A model generated the notes under the pieces. The model made no database searches and was not told the origin of the DNA. It saw only the letters and a list, made by a program, of their open reading frames with translations. A stretch of DNA of 64,000 nt from Actinoplanes cyaneus (lineage in GTDB: Bacteria; Actinomycetota; Actinomycetes; Mycobacteriales; Micromonosporaceae). The position numbers and the translations under genes are program-made. Each line of letters starts with the position of its first letter. Position 1 is the stretch's first letter. Below, piece after piece: positions 7,470-39,875 of the stretch. The DNA lies in the NCBI RefSeq assembly GCF_016862095.1, contig NZ_BOMH01000002.1, forward strand, positions 248,001 to 312,000, read 5' to 3'.

Positions 7470-7589
7470 ACCGGCGACCTTAACCAATCCCCATTCCCGA
7501 CCCCTTTTCCCGTACGTCGTGAGCCCGGCCCCGCCGCGCGCGCCCGCAAGGCCGCCCGGGGCCGAGCTCGCCACGCGCCCCCTCCCCTC

Positions 7590-7641
7590 GGCTGGTCCTC
7601 ACGGTGGTTATCCATCCCGACAACCACCGTGAGGACCAGCC
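7590..7641. repeat. Long hairpin repeat, copy 1
   Basis: Perfect 20-bp inverted repeat: left arm 7590-7609 beginning GGCTGGTCCTCACGG, right arm 7622-7641 ending CCGTGAGGACCAGCC, with a 12-base loop. Two other hairpins in the window (35181-35233 and 38615-38675) have the same ends and the same GTTAT/ATAAC motif near the loop. It lies in the roughly 500-bp spacer between the divergent sigma factor and maleylpyruvate-isomerase-like genes, so it is not a simple 3' terminator of either. Confidence 0.8.
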
Positions 7642-7680
7642 AGAAAGCGCGACACGCCGGGTCAGCCGGGGCGGGCCGGG

Positions 7681-7725
7681 GGCGCGGCGGGCCATGGCGC
7701 GGCGGGCCATGGCGCGGCGGGCCGG
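7681..7725. repeat. 15-bp tandem repeat in extreme-GC spacer
   Basis: Three tandem copies of GGCGCGGCGGGCCAT (the last ending CGG). The stretch from here to about 7860 continues as degenerate GGCGGGACGGACGGG-like units. No reading frame through it has normal codon usage. I regard 7642-7960 as noncoding. Confidence 0.7.
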
Positions 7726-7966
7726 GGGTGCGCCGCAGAGGGTCGCGGCGGACGGACGGGGCCGGGCCGCTGCGGTCGCGGCGGGACGGACCGAACGGGC
7801 CGGGGTCGTGGCGGGACGGACGGGCCGAGGGTCCCGGCGGGACGCACGGGGCGGGCTCACGACGTACCGACGCCGGCGCAGCGATTAATCGGCGATGCCG
7901 CCGCCGTATCTCTTCCGGAGAGCGAAGCGGCGAAGCGCGCCGCGGGCGCCTGAGGAGGTACGGACC

Positions 7967-34934: not shown

Positions 34935-34975
34935 GACAAGACTCCCCCGCAGGGCAGGGTCCTTGCAGCGGGAAA

Positions 34976-34997
34976 CCTCACGCGGGTGGGCGTGAGG
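34976..34997 (+). terminator. Hairpin downstream of the YcnI-like gene
   Basis: CCTCACGC/GCGTGAGG, 8-bp perfect stem with a 6-base loop GGGTGG, 41 bp after the stop codon. Confidence 0.55.
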
Positions 34998-35026
34998 CAG
35001 TCGGGTGAGGCGCGTGGGGCGCTGAT

Positions 35027-35106
35027 CACGACAGGCGGGTGGGGCCCCGGGCAAGGCCCGTGATCCGCACGACAGGCGGGTGGGGAGTCGACTCCCCACC
35101 CGCCTG
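35027..35106. repeat. Direct repeats leading into a 34-bp perfect palindrome
   Basis: The 18-mer CACGACAGGCGGGTGGGG occurs at 35027-35044 and 35068-35085. The second copy forms the left half of a perfect 34-bp palindrome (35073-35106) centred on the SalI-like GTCGAC, left arm CAGGCGGGTGGGGAGTC. It is in the 391-bp stretch 34935-35325, which has no gene and also holds the terminator at 34976 and the hairpin at 35181. Confidence 0.85.
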
Positions 35107-35180
35107 CTTGCTCTGCGCTGCTGCTGGCCGCCGGACAGTTCCGAGCACATCCCCAGCCGCGACGCACTCTCCCCGGCCCG

Positions 35181-35233
35181 GGCTGGCGCTCACGGTCCTC
35201 ATGAGTGACGGATAACGACCGTGAGGGCCAGCC
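35181..35233. repeat. Long hairpin repeat, copy 2
   Basis: Left arm 35181-35197 (GGCTGGCGCTCACGGTC) and right arm 35217-35233 (GACCGTGAGGGCCAGCC) pair over 17 bp with one mismatch; the 19-base centre contains CTCATGAG and GATAAC. Ends match the hairpins at 7590 and 38615. Confidence 0.8.
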
Positions 35234-35325
35234 GGGAGGGCGGCGGCGCGGTGGCGGCCCGGTGCCGGAGCGGCGTCGCGGTCCGGACGGACGGGACGCC
35301 GCCGCGTCCGTACCTCAAGGGTGGG

Positions 35326-35661
35326 TCAATCGTCTTTCAGGGCTGTCGCCACGTCGGCGAACATCGGCAAGTAGTCGCTGAGACCGAGCGTGTCGAAGAG
35401 GCGCCGGAGAAAACTGGACGGCGCCGCCAGGCGGACCCAACCGCCCCGCTCCATGGCGCGGCCGTGCGCGGTGACCAGCACCCCGACGCCCATGGAGTCG
35501 CAGAAGTCGAGGCCGGCCACGTCGACGACGACGCGCGGGGAGGGGCGTTCGACGAGACGGCCGAGGTTGGCCTTGAGCGCGGGCGCGGTGTCGATGTCGA
35601 GGGAACCGCGCAGGACGAGGACGGCCGTGTTGGGTGGATGGTGCGCGACCGATACCTGCAT
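35326..35661 (-). CDS. STAS-domain anti-sigma factor antagonist
   Basis: 111 residues from ATG 35661 (MQVSVAHHPPNTAVLVLRGS); the frame is open upstream. Single STAS domain: LDIDTAPALKANLGRLVE, VVVDVAGLDFCDSMGVGVLV, where the Ser of CDSMG is the usual phosphorylation site for an anti-sigma kinase. No anti-sigma factor or sigma gene is adjacent, so partners are unknown. Ends 76 bp from the start of zwf's 3' end. Confidence 0.92.
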   Translation of the reverse strand: MQVSVAHHPPNTAVLVLRGSLDIDTAPALKANLGRLVERPSPRVVVDVAGLDFCDSMGVGVLVTAHGRAMERGGWVRLAAPSSFLRRLFDTLGLSDYLPMFADVATALKDD

Positions 35662-35737
35662 TGTGCTGTGAACCTTCGGGTCGGGGGGCGGACTCGTACA
35701 GGCAACCCTATGCGAGCCCGCCAACACCCGCAGTTTC

Positions 35738-37228
35738 TCAGATCGAGTTACGCCACTTACGACCGTTGCGTCCGATCAGCCGGTCCGCGTCGGCCGGGCC
35801 CCAGGAGGCGGCCTCGTACGTCGGGATCGGCGAGCGGTCGTTCGCCCAGTGCTCGATGATCGGGTCGACGACCCGCCACGACTGCTCCACCTCGTCGCTG
35901 CGGATGAAGAGCGACGCGTCACCGACCAGCGCGTCCAGCAGCAGGCGCTCGTAGGCCTCCGGGGACTCCTCGACGAAGGTCTGGTCGTAGGAGAAGTCCA
36001 TGCTCGCCGTCCGCACCCGGAACGAGTGGCCGGGCACCTTCGCCCCGAAGCGCAGCGAGATGCCCTCGTTCGGCTGGATGCGCAGGACCAGGGCGTCGGC
36101 GTCGAGCTCGGTGAGCTGGCTGGTCGGGATCGGCAGGTGCGGCGGACGCTGGAACTGCAGCGCGACCTCGGTGACCCGGGCCGGGAGCCGCTTGCCGGTG
36201 CGCACGTAGAACGGCACGCCGGCCCAGCGCCAGTTGTCGACGTTGAGGCGCAGCGCCGCATACGTCTCCGTGCGGGACAGCGGGTCGACGCCGACCTCCT
36301 CGCGGTAGCCGGCCATCAGCTCCTCGCGGGTGCCGCCCCGCGTGTACTGCCCGCGCACCGCGGCGTCGGCGATGTCCCGGTCGGTGGGCAGCCGGATCGC
36401 CTGGAGCAGCTTCACCTTCTCGCTGCGCAGGCCCTCGCCGCCGAACGACGCGGGCGGCTCCATCAGCGCGAGCGCGAGCACCTGGAGCACGTGGTTCTGC
36501 ACGATGTCGCGCATCGCGCCGGCCGACTCGTAGAAGCCGCCGCGGGTGCCGACGCCGAGCGTCTCGGCGACCGTGATCTGCACGTGGTCGACCCAGGAGC
36601 GGTCCCAGATCGGCTGGAAGATCGAGTTGGCGAAGCGCAGGGCCAGAACGTTCTGAACCGTGTCCTTGCCGAGGTAGTGGTCGATCCGGAAGACACTGGT
36701 CTCGTCGAACGCGGCGTGCACGACGCCGTCGAGCTCGCGCGCGGTGGCCACATCCCGCCCGTACGGCTTCTCGATCACCAGACGCGCGAACGAGCCCTCG
36801 GGCGCGTGGTTGAGCCCGGCGCCGTCGAGCCCGCAGATCACCGGCTCGAACGCGTTCGCCGGGGTCGACAGGTAGAACAGCCGGTTACCGGACGTGCCGC
36901 GCTGGGCGTCCAGCTCGTCGAGCGTCTCGGCCAGCCGCTTGTAGGTCTCCGGGTCGTCGTAGCCGCCCGAGACGTAGCGGATGCCGCCGGCGAGCTGTCG
37001 CTTCTCGCTCAGGCTGCGGCCGCCGAGGGCGCTCTCCGCGAACTGCTCGTCGGACATCGGTGTCCGGGCGACGCCGACCAGGGCGAACTGGTCGGGCAGC
37101 CGGTTGTGCCGGGCGAGGCTCTCGACCGCCGGCAGCAGCTTGCGACGGGTGAGGTCACCAGAGGCGCCGAAGATCACCAGAGTGGCCGGCGGCGCGCTGC
37201 GCTCCTGGATGAGCTGAGGTTGGTCCAT
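35738..37228 (-). CDS. zwf: Glucose-6-phosphate dehydrogenase
   Basis: 496 residues. Oxidises glucose-6-phosphate to 6-phosphogluconolactone with NADP+, the entry to the pentose phosphate pathway. NADP-binding FGASGDLTRRKLLPA at about 20-34, the substrate/catalytic RIDHYLGKD at about 181-189, and EKPYGRD. ATG 37228. Here it stands alone: the tal/tkt/opcA/pgl genes often seen beside zwf in actinobacteria are absent. It is divergent from the DHH gene over 183 bp, which holds no clear promoter hexamers. Confidence 0.95.
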   Translation of the reverse strand: MDQPQLIQERSAPPATLVIFGASGDLTRRKLLPAVESLARHNRLPDQFALVGVARTPMSDEQFAESALGGRSLSEKRQLAGGIRYVSGGYDDPETYKRLAETLDELDAQRGTSGNRLFYLSTPANAFEPVICGLDGAGLNHAPEGSFARLVIEKPYGRDVATARELDGVVHAAFDETSVFRIDHYLGKDTVQNVLALRFANSIFQPIWDRSWVDHVQITVAETLGVGTRGGFYESAGAMRDIVQNHVLQVLALALMEPPASFGGEGLRSEKVKLLQAIRLPTDRDIADAAVRGQYTRGGTREELMAGYREEVGVDPLSRTETYAALRLNVDNWRWAGVPFYVRTGKRLPARVTEVALQFQRPPHLPIPTSQLTELDADALVLRIQPNEGISLRFGAKVPGHSFRVRTASMDFSYDQTFVEESPEAYERLLLDALVGDASLFIRSDEVEQSWRVVDPIIEHWANDRSPIPTYEAASWGPADADRLIGRNGRKWRNSI

Positions 37229-37411
37229 CTTCTCCGTGTCCTCCGACCGGGTCGTTACCGTCCGTTTGAACCTTACGCAGCGGCCCCCCTTGATGGTTCA
37301 TCGCGACGTGTGCCGCCGAGCACAATGCGACCGCTTCTCTCGATGCGACAAAGACCTAACCGATAAAAGTGGCAAAATGGGCGCAAAGGTCTGGCAACCG
37401 AGGGGGACCCC

Positions 37412-38350
37412 GTGAAGTACCGGCTCGTGACCCGCAGCGACTTCGACGGCCTGGTCTGCGCCGTGCTGCTGCGGCACCTCGACATGATCGACGACATCAT
37501 GTTCGTGCACCCCAAGGACGTTCAGGACGGCGTCGTCGACATCACCGATCGGGACATCCTGACGAACCTGCCCTACGACGCCCGCGCGTACCAGGTCTAC
37601 GACCACCACCACTCGGAGACGCTGCGTAACGAGGGCGACCGGAGCAACCACATCATCGACGCCGACGCGCCGTCCGCCGCGCGCGTGATCTATGACCACT
37701 TCGGCGGCCGCGAGCGCTTCCCGAAGGTCTCCGACGACCTGATGCGCGCCGTCGACCAGGCCGACTCGGCCGACTACTCGCTGACCGACATCCTCAGCCC
37801 GACCGGCTGGACGCTGCTCAACTTCCTGATGGACAGCCGCACCGGCCTGGGCCGCTTCCGCAACTTCCGGATCTCCAACTACCAGCTGATGATGCAGCTC
37901 ATCGACGCCTGCATCGAGCACCAGGACGTCCACGAGATCCTCGCGCTGCCCGACGTCGCCGAGCGCGCCATGCTCTTCCACGACTGCTCGGCCCGCTTCG
38001 TCGAGCAGCTGCACCGCGTCAGCCACCTCGACGGCGACGTCATCGTCGTCGACCTGCGCGACGAGGAGACCATCGAGGCCGGCAATCGCTTCATGGTCTA
38101 CGCGCTGTTCCCCGAGGCCCGCGTCTCGGTGCACATCATCTGGGGCCGCCAGAAGCTCAACACCGTCTTCGCCTGCGGCAAATCGATCCTCGACCGCACG
38201 TCACCGGTCGACATCGGCGAGATCATGCTCCGCTACGGCGGCGGCGGCCACATCGCCGCCGGCACCTGCCAGGTCCCGCACGACGAGTCCGACCGCGTCG
38301 AGCGCGAGATCATCGACGCCCTGCGCACCGAACGGGTCGTCCCGGTCTGA
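37412..38350 (+). CDS. DHH-superfamily phosphoesterase-like protein
   Basis: 312 residues. DHH motifs: N-terminal SDFDGLVCAVLL (metal-binding Asp pair), YDHHHSE (DHH), VDQADSADYS, and a C-terminal DHHA1-like GGGGHIAAGTCQV. These enzymes hydrolyse phosphoester bonds in c-di-AMP, pAp, nanoRNA or polyphosphate; this one lacks CBS, CBS-DRTGG or RecJ extensions, so the substrate is open. GTG start at 37412 with GAGGGGG upstream. Cytosolic. Confidence 0.9.
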   Translation: MKYRLVTRSDFDGLVCAVLLRHLDMIDDIMFVHPKDVQDGVVDITDRDILTNLPYDARAYQVYDHHHSETLRNEGDRSNHIIDADAPSAARVIYDHFGGRERFPKVSDDLMRAVDQADSADYSLTDILSPTGWTLLNFLMDSRTGLGRFRNFRISNYQLMMQLIDACIEHQDVHEILALPDVAERAMLFHDCSARFVEQLHRVSHLDGDVIVVDLRDEETIEAGNRFMVYALFPEARVSVHIIWGRQKLNTVFACGKSILDRTSPVDIGEIMLRYGGGGHIAAGTCQVPHDESDRVEREIIDALRTERVVPV

Positions 38351-38614
38351 AGATCGGTTCAACGAGGCGAAGCTCAACGTCAAGATCACCATGTCCTACG
38401 TCCGCCGTGGCCGAGGTCCGCTGCTCCCGCGGGGACCCTTGCGGGCTTCGCAGGGCCGTGGCCGGCCCAGAACGCGAAACCCTCCAGGGCGGCCTCCGTG
38501 GCGGGGCACGGTCAGAGCACAACAAACCCGCGCAACGGCCCCGTCCGCGCGACCGCCCGGCGCGTGAACCCCCGCGAGGTTCGCGCCGGGCCGGGCTCGC
38601 GGCGCGGCTCACCC

Positions 38615-38675
38615 TTCCGGCTGGTTCTCATGGGCGTTATTCGTGCCTCATAACGCCCATGAGAACCAGCCGGAA
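38615..38675. repeat. Long hairpin repeat, copy 3 (26-bp perfect stem)
   Basis: Left arm 38615-38640 starts TTCCGGCTGGTTCTCATGGG and ends GTTAT; the right arm 38650-38675 is its exact reverse complement; the loop is 9 bases (TCGTGCCTC). Same ends as the hairpins at 7590 and 35181. It lies in the 475-bp stretch 38351-38825 between the DHH and ROK genes. That stretch has no gene; its first bases (38352-38408) could be read as a gene scrap (FNEAKLNVKITMSYVRRG), and CGGTCGCG-like words recur at 38730-38770. Confidence 0.9.
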
Positions 38676-38825
38676 CCGCAACCCGCGCAGCGACACCGCC
38701 CCGGGACAGGTCGCGAACCCCATCCCCACGCGACCGGTCGCGGACCTGATCGGCCGGGACCGGTCGCGAACTGCGGAAGGGCGAGGCGGGGCGGCTGCTG
38801 ATGCGGGGACGGCGTCGCGGACGGG

Positions 38826-39875
38826 TCAGCGGGTGGGAGCGGAGACGGCGTCGAGGGCGGCGACCGCGGCGCCACGGGCGCCGGCCATGTCCAGGTCCGC
38901 GACCAGGGCGAACGTGGCCGCCTTGGCCTGCTCGTCGCGCAGCTGCGTGTGCTCCCGGACGGTGTTGAGGAACCACTGGCGGAAGTGCGGGGCCGCCTCG
39001 ACGACGCCACCACCCAGGAAGTACGCCGCCGGGTCGGTGAAGTTGGCCGCGATCGTGAACAGCTTGCCGATCGCCCGCGCCTGCTGCCCGAAGACCGCCA
39101 TCGCGAGCGGGTCCTCCTTCTCCCCGTACCCCCGGAGCAGTTTTGCCGCCCTGCCGATCGGCTCGGCGGCGAGCGGGTGATCCGGGAAACGCTTCAGCCA
39201 GTACGGCAGGAGGTTGTTCTTGATCCCGGTCAGCGACGCGATCGCCTCGACGTCGCCGTCGAAGCCGCAGTTGCAGGCCGGCACGGGCTGATCGTCCTCC
39301 AGGACGCCGTGCAGCGGGATCTGCACGTGACCGAGCTCGCCCGCCATCCCGGCGGTGCCCTTGACGACCCGCCCGTTCTCGACGACGCCCCCGCCGAGGC
39401 CGGTGCCGACGATCGCGGCCACCGATGACGTCTCCAGCGCGGCGGCGCCGAAGTGCCGGTGGTGGGCGTAGAGCGCGGCGGCGTTGGCGTCGTTGTTGTA
39501 GATCACCGGCAGGCCCAGCCGTGCCTCGAGGGCGCCCCGGATGTCGAAGCCGTGCCAGGAGACCTGGTTGAAGTTGGTCGCGCCCTTGGACGAGATCACG
39601 CCGTTGGCGCTGGCCGGGCCGGGGGTGTCCAGGCCGACCGCGCGGACCAGGGACTTCGGCGTGCTGGTCAGCTCGAGGATGCCGGTGAACGCCTCGGCCA
39701 GGGACTCGACGGCCGACTCGGGCCCGTCGAGGACCCGGGACGGGTTCTCCACCAGGTTGTTCACCAGGAACTGCCCGGTCGCGTCGAGAACGGTGGCGTT
39801 GTTGCATGTCCCCCCGTTGTCGAGACCGACGACAACCCAGGACGACGGGGTCCGTACCGCTTCAGCCTGATCCAC
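38826..39875 (-). CDS. ROK-family sugar kinase
   Basis: 349 residues. N-terminal ATP motif is GLDNGGTCNNATVLD; the sugar-binding YNNDANAAAL and VGTGLGGGVV are typical of ROK kinases. The zinc motif, normally C-x-C-G-x2-G-C-x-E, reads CNCGFDGDVEA here, with the last Cys replaced by Asp. GTG start at 39875 with short spacer to the divergent DUF1800 gene. It could phosphorylate glucose or N-acetyl sugars, or be a regulator without DNA-binding part; no HTH is present. Confidence 0.88.
   Translation of the reverse strand: MDQAEAVRTPSSWVVVGLDNGGTCNNATVLDATGQFLVNNLVENPSRVLDGPESAVESLAEAFTGILELTSTPKSLVRAVGLDTPGPASANGVISSKGATNFNQVSWHGFDIRGALEARLGLPVIYNNDANAAALYAHHRHFGAAALETSSVAAIVGTGLGGGVVENGRVVKGTAGMAGELGHVQIPLHGVLEDDQPVPACNCGFDGDVEAIASLTGIKNNLLPYWLKRFPDHPLAAEPIGRAAKLLRGYGEKEDPLAMAVFGQQARAIGKLFTIAANFTDPAAYFLGGGVVEAAPHFRQWFLNTVREHTQLRDEQAKAATFALVADLDMAGARGAAVAALDAVSAPTR

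Follow-up and report, generated by a model that had tools for sequence, protein, structure and literature searches.

A dispersed family of REP-like palindromic hairpin repeats in Actinoplanes

Introduction

MITEs are short, non-coding, inverted-repeat sequences present in many copies, ERIC is an imperfect palindrome of approximately 127 bp located in spacers, and intrinsic terminators are hairpins positioned downstream of genes. REP elements, which measure 20-40 bp and include GTAG- and CGTC-tagged superfamilies, have been reported mainly from Proteobacteria, and the CGTC repeats apparently have no dedicated transposase according to the authors (PMC3733652, available part of the article); the words Streptomyces and actinobacteria are absent from the main text of that article as available. 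For REPINs, the length of the spacer and its capacity to form a hairpin are described as critical and compensatory changes as common, and RAYT enzymes have been proposed as their movers (PMC3116915, available part).

Here, we describe a family of hairpin repeats in Actinoplanes which, like REP elements as presented in the available part of PMC3733652, are short, extragenic, palindromic, and high in copy number, form families that differ between species, and occur in doublets and clusters.

Results

Three hairpins in a 64-kb window

The window, meaning the whole 64-kb stretch of DNA that was analysed, covers positions 248001-312000 of contig C2 of the Actinoplanes cyaneus genome (the host genome, G000; 10.36 Mb in 183 contigs). 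An earlier note on this DNA had described three intergenic hairpins with stems of 20 bp, 17 bp with one mismatch, and 26 bp, and all three are present:

7488..7966, no strand assigned: divergent spacer of hairpin 1 (home-made gene caller)
7590..7641, no strand assigned: core of hairpin 1, 52 bp, with an uninterrupted 20-bp stem; flanking genes divergent
34935..35325, no strand assigned: convergent spacer of hairpin 2 (home-made gene caller)
35181..35233, no strand assigned: core of hairpin 2, 53 bp, paired across its outer 17 positions except for one mismatch
38351..38825, no strand assigned: convergent spacer of hairpin 3 (home-made gene caller)
38573..38715, no strand assigned: extended element of hairpin 3, 143 bp, beginning with CGCGAGGT and finishing with AGGTCGCG
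38615..38675, no strand assigned: hairpin 3 with its palindromic extension TTCC..GGAA, 61 bp, a perfect 26-bp stem
38619..38671, no strand assigned: core of hairpin 3, 53 bp

The intergenic siting was borne out for all three, with the refinement that the copy at 7590 lies between divergent genes and the other two between convergent genes. Likewise, the third hairpin is present at 38615-38675, and the element itself runs beyond it to 143 bp. The 46- and 44-bp flanks of this extended element have motifs in common with the flanks of other copies, and the arm of its core is the one that recurs most often in perfect copies from the host sequence sampled. The stem of the hairpin at 35181-35233 contains mismatches. 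Folded as ssDNA, the hairpins at 7590-7641, 35181-35233, and 38615-38675 gave z scores of -9.2, -7.0, and -13.7, respectively, relative to dinucleotide shuffles, and 0 of 200 shuffles folded as well in each case. Pfam analysis of ten ORFs near the three copies recognised families in five (ECF sigma, MDMPI, STAS, ROK, and AraC) and no family in the other five. Among named loci, the best matches to the neighbouring ROK gene come from Actinoplanes.

Two other repetitive features were observed in these spacers. A palindrome whose 17-bp arms match perfectly (CAGGCGGGTGGGGAGTCGACTCCCCACCCGCCTG), a candidate for a separate terminator, occupies 35073-35106 in the spacer of hairpin 2, and short GC-rich repeats (gcgcggcgggccatgg and similar) immediately adjoin hairpin 1 at approximately 7690-7850.

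Copy number and anatomy in the host genome

A strict paired pattern matched 239 copies across the host genome, whereas the reversed control pattern matched 0, which excludes a chance origin of the hairpin family. The proposal of a dispersed family with shared ends therefore holds genome-wide, and the counter-scenario that the earlier note had raised, in which only three copies exist, is false. The length of 238 of the 239 strict copies is 52 or 53 bp. Using an nhmmer profile of the strict copies, we located 99 loci at E <=0.02 in 1.2185 Mb of host sequence, consisting of the contig of the window and other host contigs taken from the listing of strict matches. Because this sample is non-random, the family size was extrapolated from the strict copies, 39 of the 239 being in the sample, which gives about 600 copies genome-wide; extrapolation by length would have given about 840.

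Five of the 99 loci, in which two recognisable ends were not present, were dropped before counting. Among the 94 copies with both ends defined, 63 measured 53 bp, 30 measured 52 bp, and one measured 47 bp. The core repeat is accordingly 52-53 bp with the ends GGCTGG/CCAGCC, and the outer GCTGG is nearly invariant, a conservation that is partly by construction because the end definition demanded a GGCTGG-like start and its complement. A detector disregarding most of the stem sequence recovered 74 copies, versus 0 in one Markov resample per contig. Grouping of copies less than 200 bp apart yielded 66 clusters, of which 42 were single, 20 double, and 4 triple; in the 24 clusters of two or three, neighbouring copies were often separated by either 7-10 bp (nine cases) or 50-53 bp (eleven cases). 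The coefficient of variation (CV) of cluster spacing along the chromosome was 0.64-0.77 on four contigs.

The sequence outside the ends was profiled in 96 flanks of well-paired copies. Just outside GGCTGG, the profile approximates TYCC, with A at a frequency of <=0.02 in the last four positions, and weaker conservation extends to about position -47 and then fades. Of these 96 G000 flanks, 48 have the motif CGCGA at -44 to -47, and 8 of 44 single copies, that at 38573-38715 among them, carry it on both sides for a total length of 142-144 bp. In relatives, the CGCGA flank was detected in 5/26 (G037), 5/18 (G039), 1/20 (G026), and 0 (G034 and G065). Since the extended flank is weak or missing in relatives, the shared unit is the hairpin and not the flank.

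Placement relative to genes

Based on calls from the home-made gene caller, 88 of the 94 refined host copies are located in spacers; the spacer counts exclude three copies inside called genes and three at contig edges. The 61 occupied spacers comprise 41 convergent, 17 tandem, and 3 divergent, and the sample holds 102 convergent, 264 tandem, and 150 divergent spacers of >=80 bp. Occupancy at this size reaches 40% for convergent spacers and 2% for divergent ones (convergent 41/102 vs 20/414 of all others, p 2e-18). Copies avoid promoters, with 3 of the 61 occupied spacers being divergent. The G000 copies lie at a median of 139 nt from the nearest stop, 6 of 85 being within 20 nt, and TTT follows the hairpin in 0 of 146 flanks. 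Fifteen copies were placed in ten stretches of G065, which were chosen around known copies: 8 were convergent, 7 tandem, and 0 divergent, at a median of 16 nt from the stop codon (8/15 within 20 nt), and TTT was present in 5 of 23 three-prime flanks.

Paired changes in the stem arms

The claim that the arms co-vary between copies proved to be real in two alignments. The first contained 56 host copies, namely 55 of the 94 chosen to differ by >7 bases and the third window copy. Its covariation score was 0.296, compared with 0.152 in shuffles, and 139 cells had a double change, compared with 63 in shuffles (0 of 500 shuffles as high for either measure); the count of pairs showing at least one double change was within chance (15 vs 13.4, 99/500). 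The second contained one copy per genome from 21 of the 27 genomes with top covariance-model hits, a model that expects pairing and so favours paired rows. In this alignment, pairing holds in 94.4% of cells, double changes occur at 16 of 24 pairs (8.2 expected), and the covariation score is 0.420, compared with 0.127 when shuffled; 0 of 500 shuffles reached any of the five measures, and slid controls were far lower. The six hits omitted from it were not 57 columns long: the 52-bp copies of G065 and G034, and the hits in G005, G015, G041, and G044 (51, 54, 70, and 58 bp), those of G041 and G044 being unlike the hairpin family in appearance.

In a set of 44 53-bp copies selected for good pairing, the arms differ on average at 0.52 of 22 positions within a copy and at 2.75 between copies. 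Perfect copies, 28 of the 94 in the host sample, present 15 different arms. The outer flanks of the extended element display no paired variation (z -0.7, 44 single copies), indicating that the paired change is specific to the hairpin. Paired changes would also be expected from selection on structure.

Distribution across genomes

Of the 67 Actinoplanes genomes, 14 matched the strict pattern, G000 being one of them, and 27 were positive with a covariance model at E 0.001. This model scored <=84 candidates per genome and counted the palindrome on both strands, so that high counts are lower bounds; its hits in G041 (single), G044 (single), and G015 (two) are doubtful. Through a looser pattern, we detected copies in 8 of 200 Micromonosporaceae genomes, all eight belonging to the 36 Actinoplanes genomes, and in 0 of the 164 genomes from 43 other genera, although diverged versions could escape it; its reversed control gave one match among the 200, in one other genome. 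Across the phylum, the strict 52/53-bp pattern, which diverged versions could likewise escape, matched only G000 of 296 genomes.

A midpoint-rooted tree of one gene was built from the 30 of 67 genomes that best match one window protein. It grouped the 24 model-positive genomes together, with two negatives, G060 and G013, falling inside this group and the other four negatives grouping apart. The fewest label changes on this tree are three, which may represent one gain and two losses. In G060, a close relative with a single contig of 9,240,166 bp, no copy was found by the strict pattern, the covariance model, or a 400-kb scan.

Related palindromes were also observed. Versions ending in GGCTGT rather than GGCTGG occur at L186, L187, and L092 (12964-13022), which belong to G054, G051, and the Actinoplanes italicus locus. 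A second palindrome, TCCGCGCCCCGCCCGC..GCGGGCGGGGCGCGGA, is present at the Actinoplanes loci L076 (2917-2951), L077 (59-94), L078 (241-277), and L079 (207-255), with one further occurrence in the G060 sequence examined and one in that of G053; it may be a conserved hairpin located 3' of a gene.

Species versions in syntenic spacers

Between the same ends, the versions of the stem are genome-specific among the species examined, with the inner stems GGGTGTCTC in many G037 copies, GGCCCTAT in G026, and GGGCGTTAT in G000. Stretches of G037 and G026 also contain tandem arrays of near-identical hairpins with periods of, for example, 63, 66, 89, ~99, and ~109 bp.

Among syntenic spacers, G053 carries copies in 4 of the 6 whose G000 counterpart is occupied and in 0 of the 101 whose counterpart is not (Fisher p 2.9e-6); for convergent spacers alone, the counts are 2 of 3 vs 0 of 10. 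The corresponding G037 counts were non-significant (1/2 vs 1/35), and G060 held copies in none of either group (0/1 and 0/34). The spacer syntenic to 7488-7966 has copies of other versions in G053 and G037 and none in G060; that syntenic to 38351-38825 in G053 is 259 bp long without a copy; and the spacer 34935-35325 had no syntenic counterpart in the three relatives compared. Among the flanks of seven syntenic copy pairs, two of which pair a single G053 copy in alternative ways, one was clearly alignable and unique (left flank, z 4.6), one was weak (z 2.4), one reached z 4.7 within a repeat-bearing flank, and four gave nothing (all z <2). The occurrence of different versions in the same G000 and G053 syntenic spacers is more readily explained by in-place rewriting of old sites than by new insertions.

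Search for a mobilizing activity

We identified Y1_Tnp in 21 of the 67 Actinoplanes genomes, with a weakly positive, non-significant association with strict carriers (7/14 vs 14/53 others, Fisher p 0.11) and with model-positive genomes (11/27 vs 10/40, p 0.19). The host has two partial Y1_Tnp matches only, and the domain is absent from the strict carriers G026, G032, G034, G036, G046, G053, and G065. No hairpin copies were found around the 12 best-matching Y1 loci (<=1.5 kb on each side) or in the 4-kb stretches with the two G000 fragments. A RAYT/IS200 origin is therefore unsupported by the distribution or by the neighbourhood of the 14 Y1 matches. Of the REP/MITE-like elements spread by a transposase that the earlier note suggested, the dispersed family is thus supported, with hundreds of copies, species versions, and a location mostly extragenic and rarely between divergent genes, and the Y1 link is not.

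An autonomous copy between neighbouring hairpins was also considered and gained no support: where two copies lie 0.4-6 kb apart, no transposase was recognised in the intervening genes from the first 60 residues, over which these genes resemble ordinary host genes. A plasmid or phage origin was rejected after one 53-bp copy gave no BLAST match at E 0.01 in the plasmid or the phage collection. In the small set of 8 copies with CGCGA at both ends, no direct repeat of >=4 bp, as expected of a target duplication, flanked the element.

Relatives had been proposed as a source of empty sites, and the G053 spacer matching 38351-38825 does lack the third copy; it also lacks the surrounding sequence and gives no exact junction. 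Near the end of this spacer we observed a 24-bp palindrome, GCCGCGGGCTCGCGAGCCCGCGGC, centred on TCGCGA, which has CGCGA in common with the ends of the G000 extended elements and is possibly a target.

Discussion

On balance, we favour the reading that these hairpins form a REP-like family of DNA palindromes, 52-53 bp long and seen here only in Actinoplanes, which is likely spread and renewed as an ssDNA or cruciform hairpin by a putative activity. During copying or repair, one arm would serve as template for the other, such that a variant base enters both arms at once; this arm templating is inferred from the matched arms within differing copies. The central loop would remain free to vary, and copies may gather between gene ends because insertions in promoters would be lost. 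In some species, such as G065, stop-adjacent copies may additionally serve as 3'-end hairpins. The family is likely a mobile or formerly mobile REP-like DNA hairpin, whose copies may move at present, be converted in place, or both. Weighing against this reading, the comparisons gave no sign of movement, with no target duplication in the 8 copies and no clean empty site, and partial searches tied no transposase to the family. A related possibility, to which we give about one chance in a handful, is concerted evolution, in which the places are inherited and the stems are rewritten species-wide by hairpin-templated DNA conversion with no dedicated transposase; such conversion would hold length and ends fixed.

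A bidirectional terminator or 3'-end RNA hairpin between convergent genes, kept by selection on RNA structure, is unlikely, even though it would suit the 41 of 61 occupied spacers that are convergent, the stop proximity and TTT tracts of G065, and single copies with the edges AACCC..GGGTTTT (G047) and AACCCC..GGGGGTTTTT (G065). Against it are the long stop distances in G000 and the absence of TTT from its 146 flanks, and other stop-proximal hairpins are equally frequent in convergent spacers with (16/82 ends) and without (24/122) a copy. A consensus scan called no terminator in 34950-38900, a result with little bearing on these hairpins because the scan accepts loops of 3-8 only and requires a T-run. 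In gene orientation, mismatches in G000 have no excess of G-U over A-C that would mark an RNA strand: tandem spacers gave 25 G-U vs 21 A-C, and convergent spacers oriented by the nearest stop gave 45 vs 61 (66 vs 40 on the stored strand, which is meaningless for transcription). Selection at the RNA level was thus rejected on this measure, and, with no T-tract after the hairpin, an RNA terminator role is unsupported in G000. The structured RNA that the earlier note had entertained found no support in the host genome either, as no Rfam match exceeded the gathering score in the 64-kb window and no strand-specific wobble bias was present; nor do G000 copies sit solely at 3' ends like ordinary terminators, a picture to which G065 comes closer.

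An architectural or regulatory DNA site, at which a protein would recognise the GGCTGG ends, set a constant distance apart, together with the intervening hairpin or cruciform, appears somewhat less probable again. It would account for the rigid 52/53-bp length and near-invariant ends, and the cluster spacing (CV 0.64-0.77) and repeat periods of ~63 and 103-105 bp, which may be read as near whole helical turns, are in its favour. However, the stem bases between the ends are rewritten from species to species, and the searches used detected no copy in G060, which the one-gene tree nests among model-positive genomes. We regard as least probable that these are static old palindromes, immobile and perfected in place via template switching during replication. 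The match of arms inside a copy while copies differ, the shared syntenic spacers with different versions, and the one copy pair with a clearly alignable left flank (z 4.6) agree with this; yet the process alone cannot explain why a single version dominates at many places within each species, and the flanks of the other copy pairs are weak (z 2.4), repeat-bearing (z 4.7), or without signal (four at z <2).

Among the matches listed in a search of titles and the beginnings of abstracts, a literature with subscription journals mostly outside it, no published description of this hairpin family was present. With hundreds of copies, no clear RAYT link, and species-specific paired stems, the Actinoplanes family provides a system for studying how hairpin repeats are copied and maintained, and G060, a relative with no detected copy, offers a natural control for what the hairpins do.

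Compared with known systems, the Actinoplanes repeats resemble MITEs in being short, non-coding, inverted-repeat, and present in many copies, and differ from them in that partial searches found no target duplication or related transposase. The extended element of 142-144 bp and ERIC, at approximately 127 bp, are both palindromic and located in spacers; unlike ERIC, the Actinoplanes repeat co-varies only in a central hairpin whose sequence differs between species. Like intrinsic terminators, the hairpins lie downstream of genes, some G065 copies having short T-tracts, whereas those of G000 have no T-tract and are mostly far from stop codons. Length, hairpin capacity, and compensatory changes feature here as they do in REPINs, as far as the available part of PMC3116915 describes them, but REPINs are REP doublets tied to RAYT genes, and the Actinoplanes unit appears to be one hairpin, for which no RAYT link was found. 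In contrast to REP elements of 20-40 bp as they appear in the available part of PMC3733652, the Actinoplanes core measures 52-53 bp, the best copies have near-perfect 20-26 bp stems, the base of the stem has approximately TYCC (96 flanks) instead of an unpaired GTAG or CGTC tag, and the host is Actinoplanes. The best reading is that the family is new in sequence, length, and host relative to REP elements.
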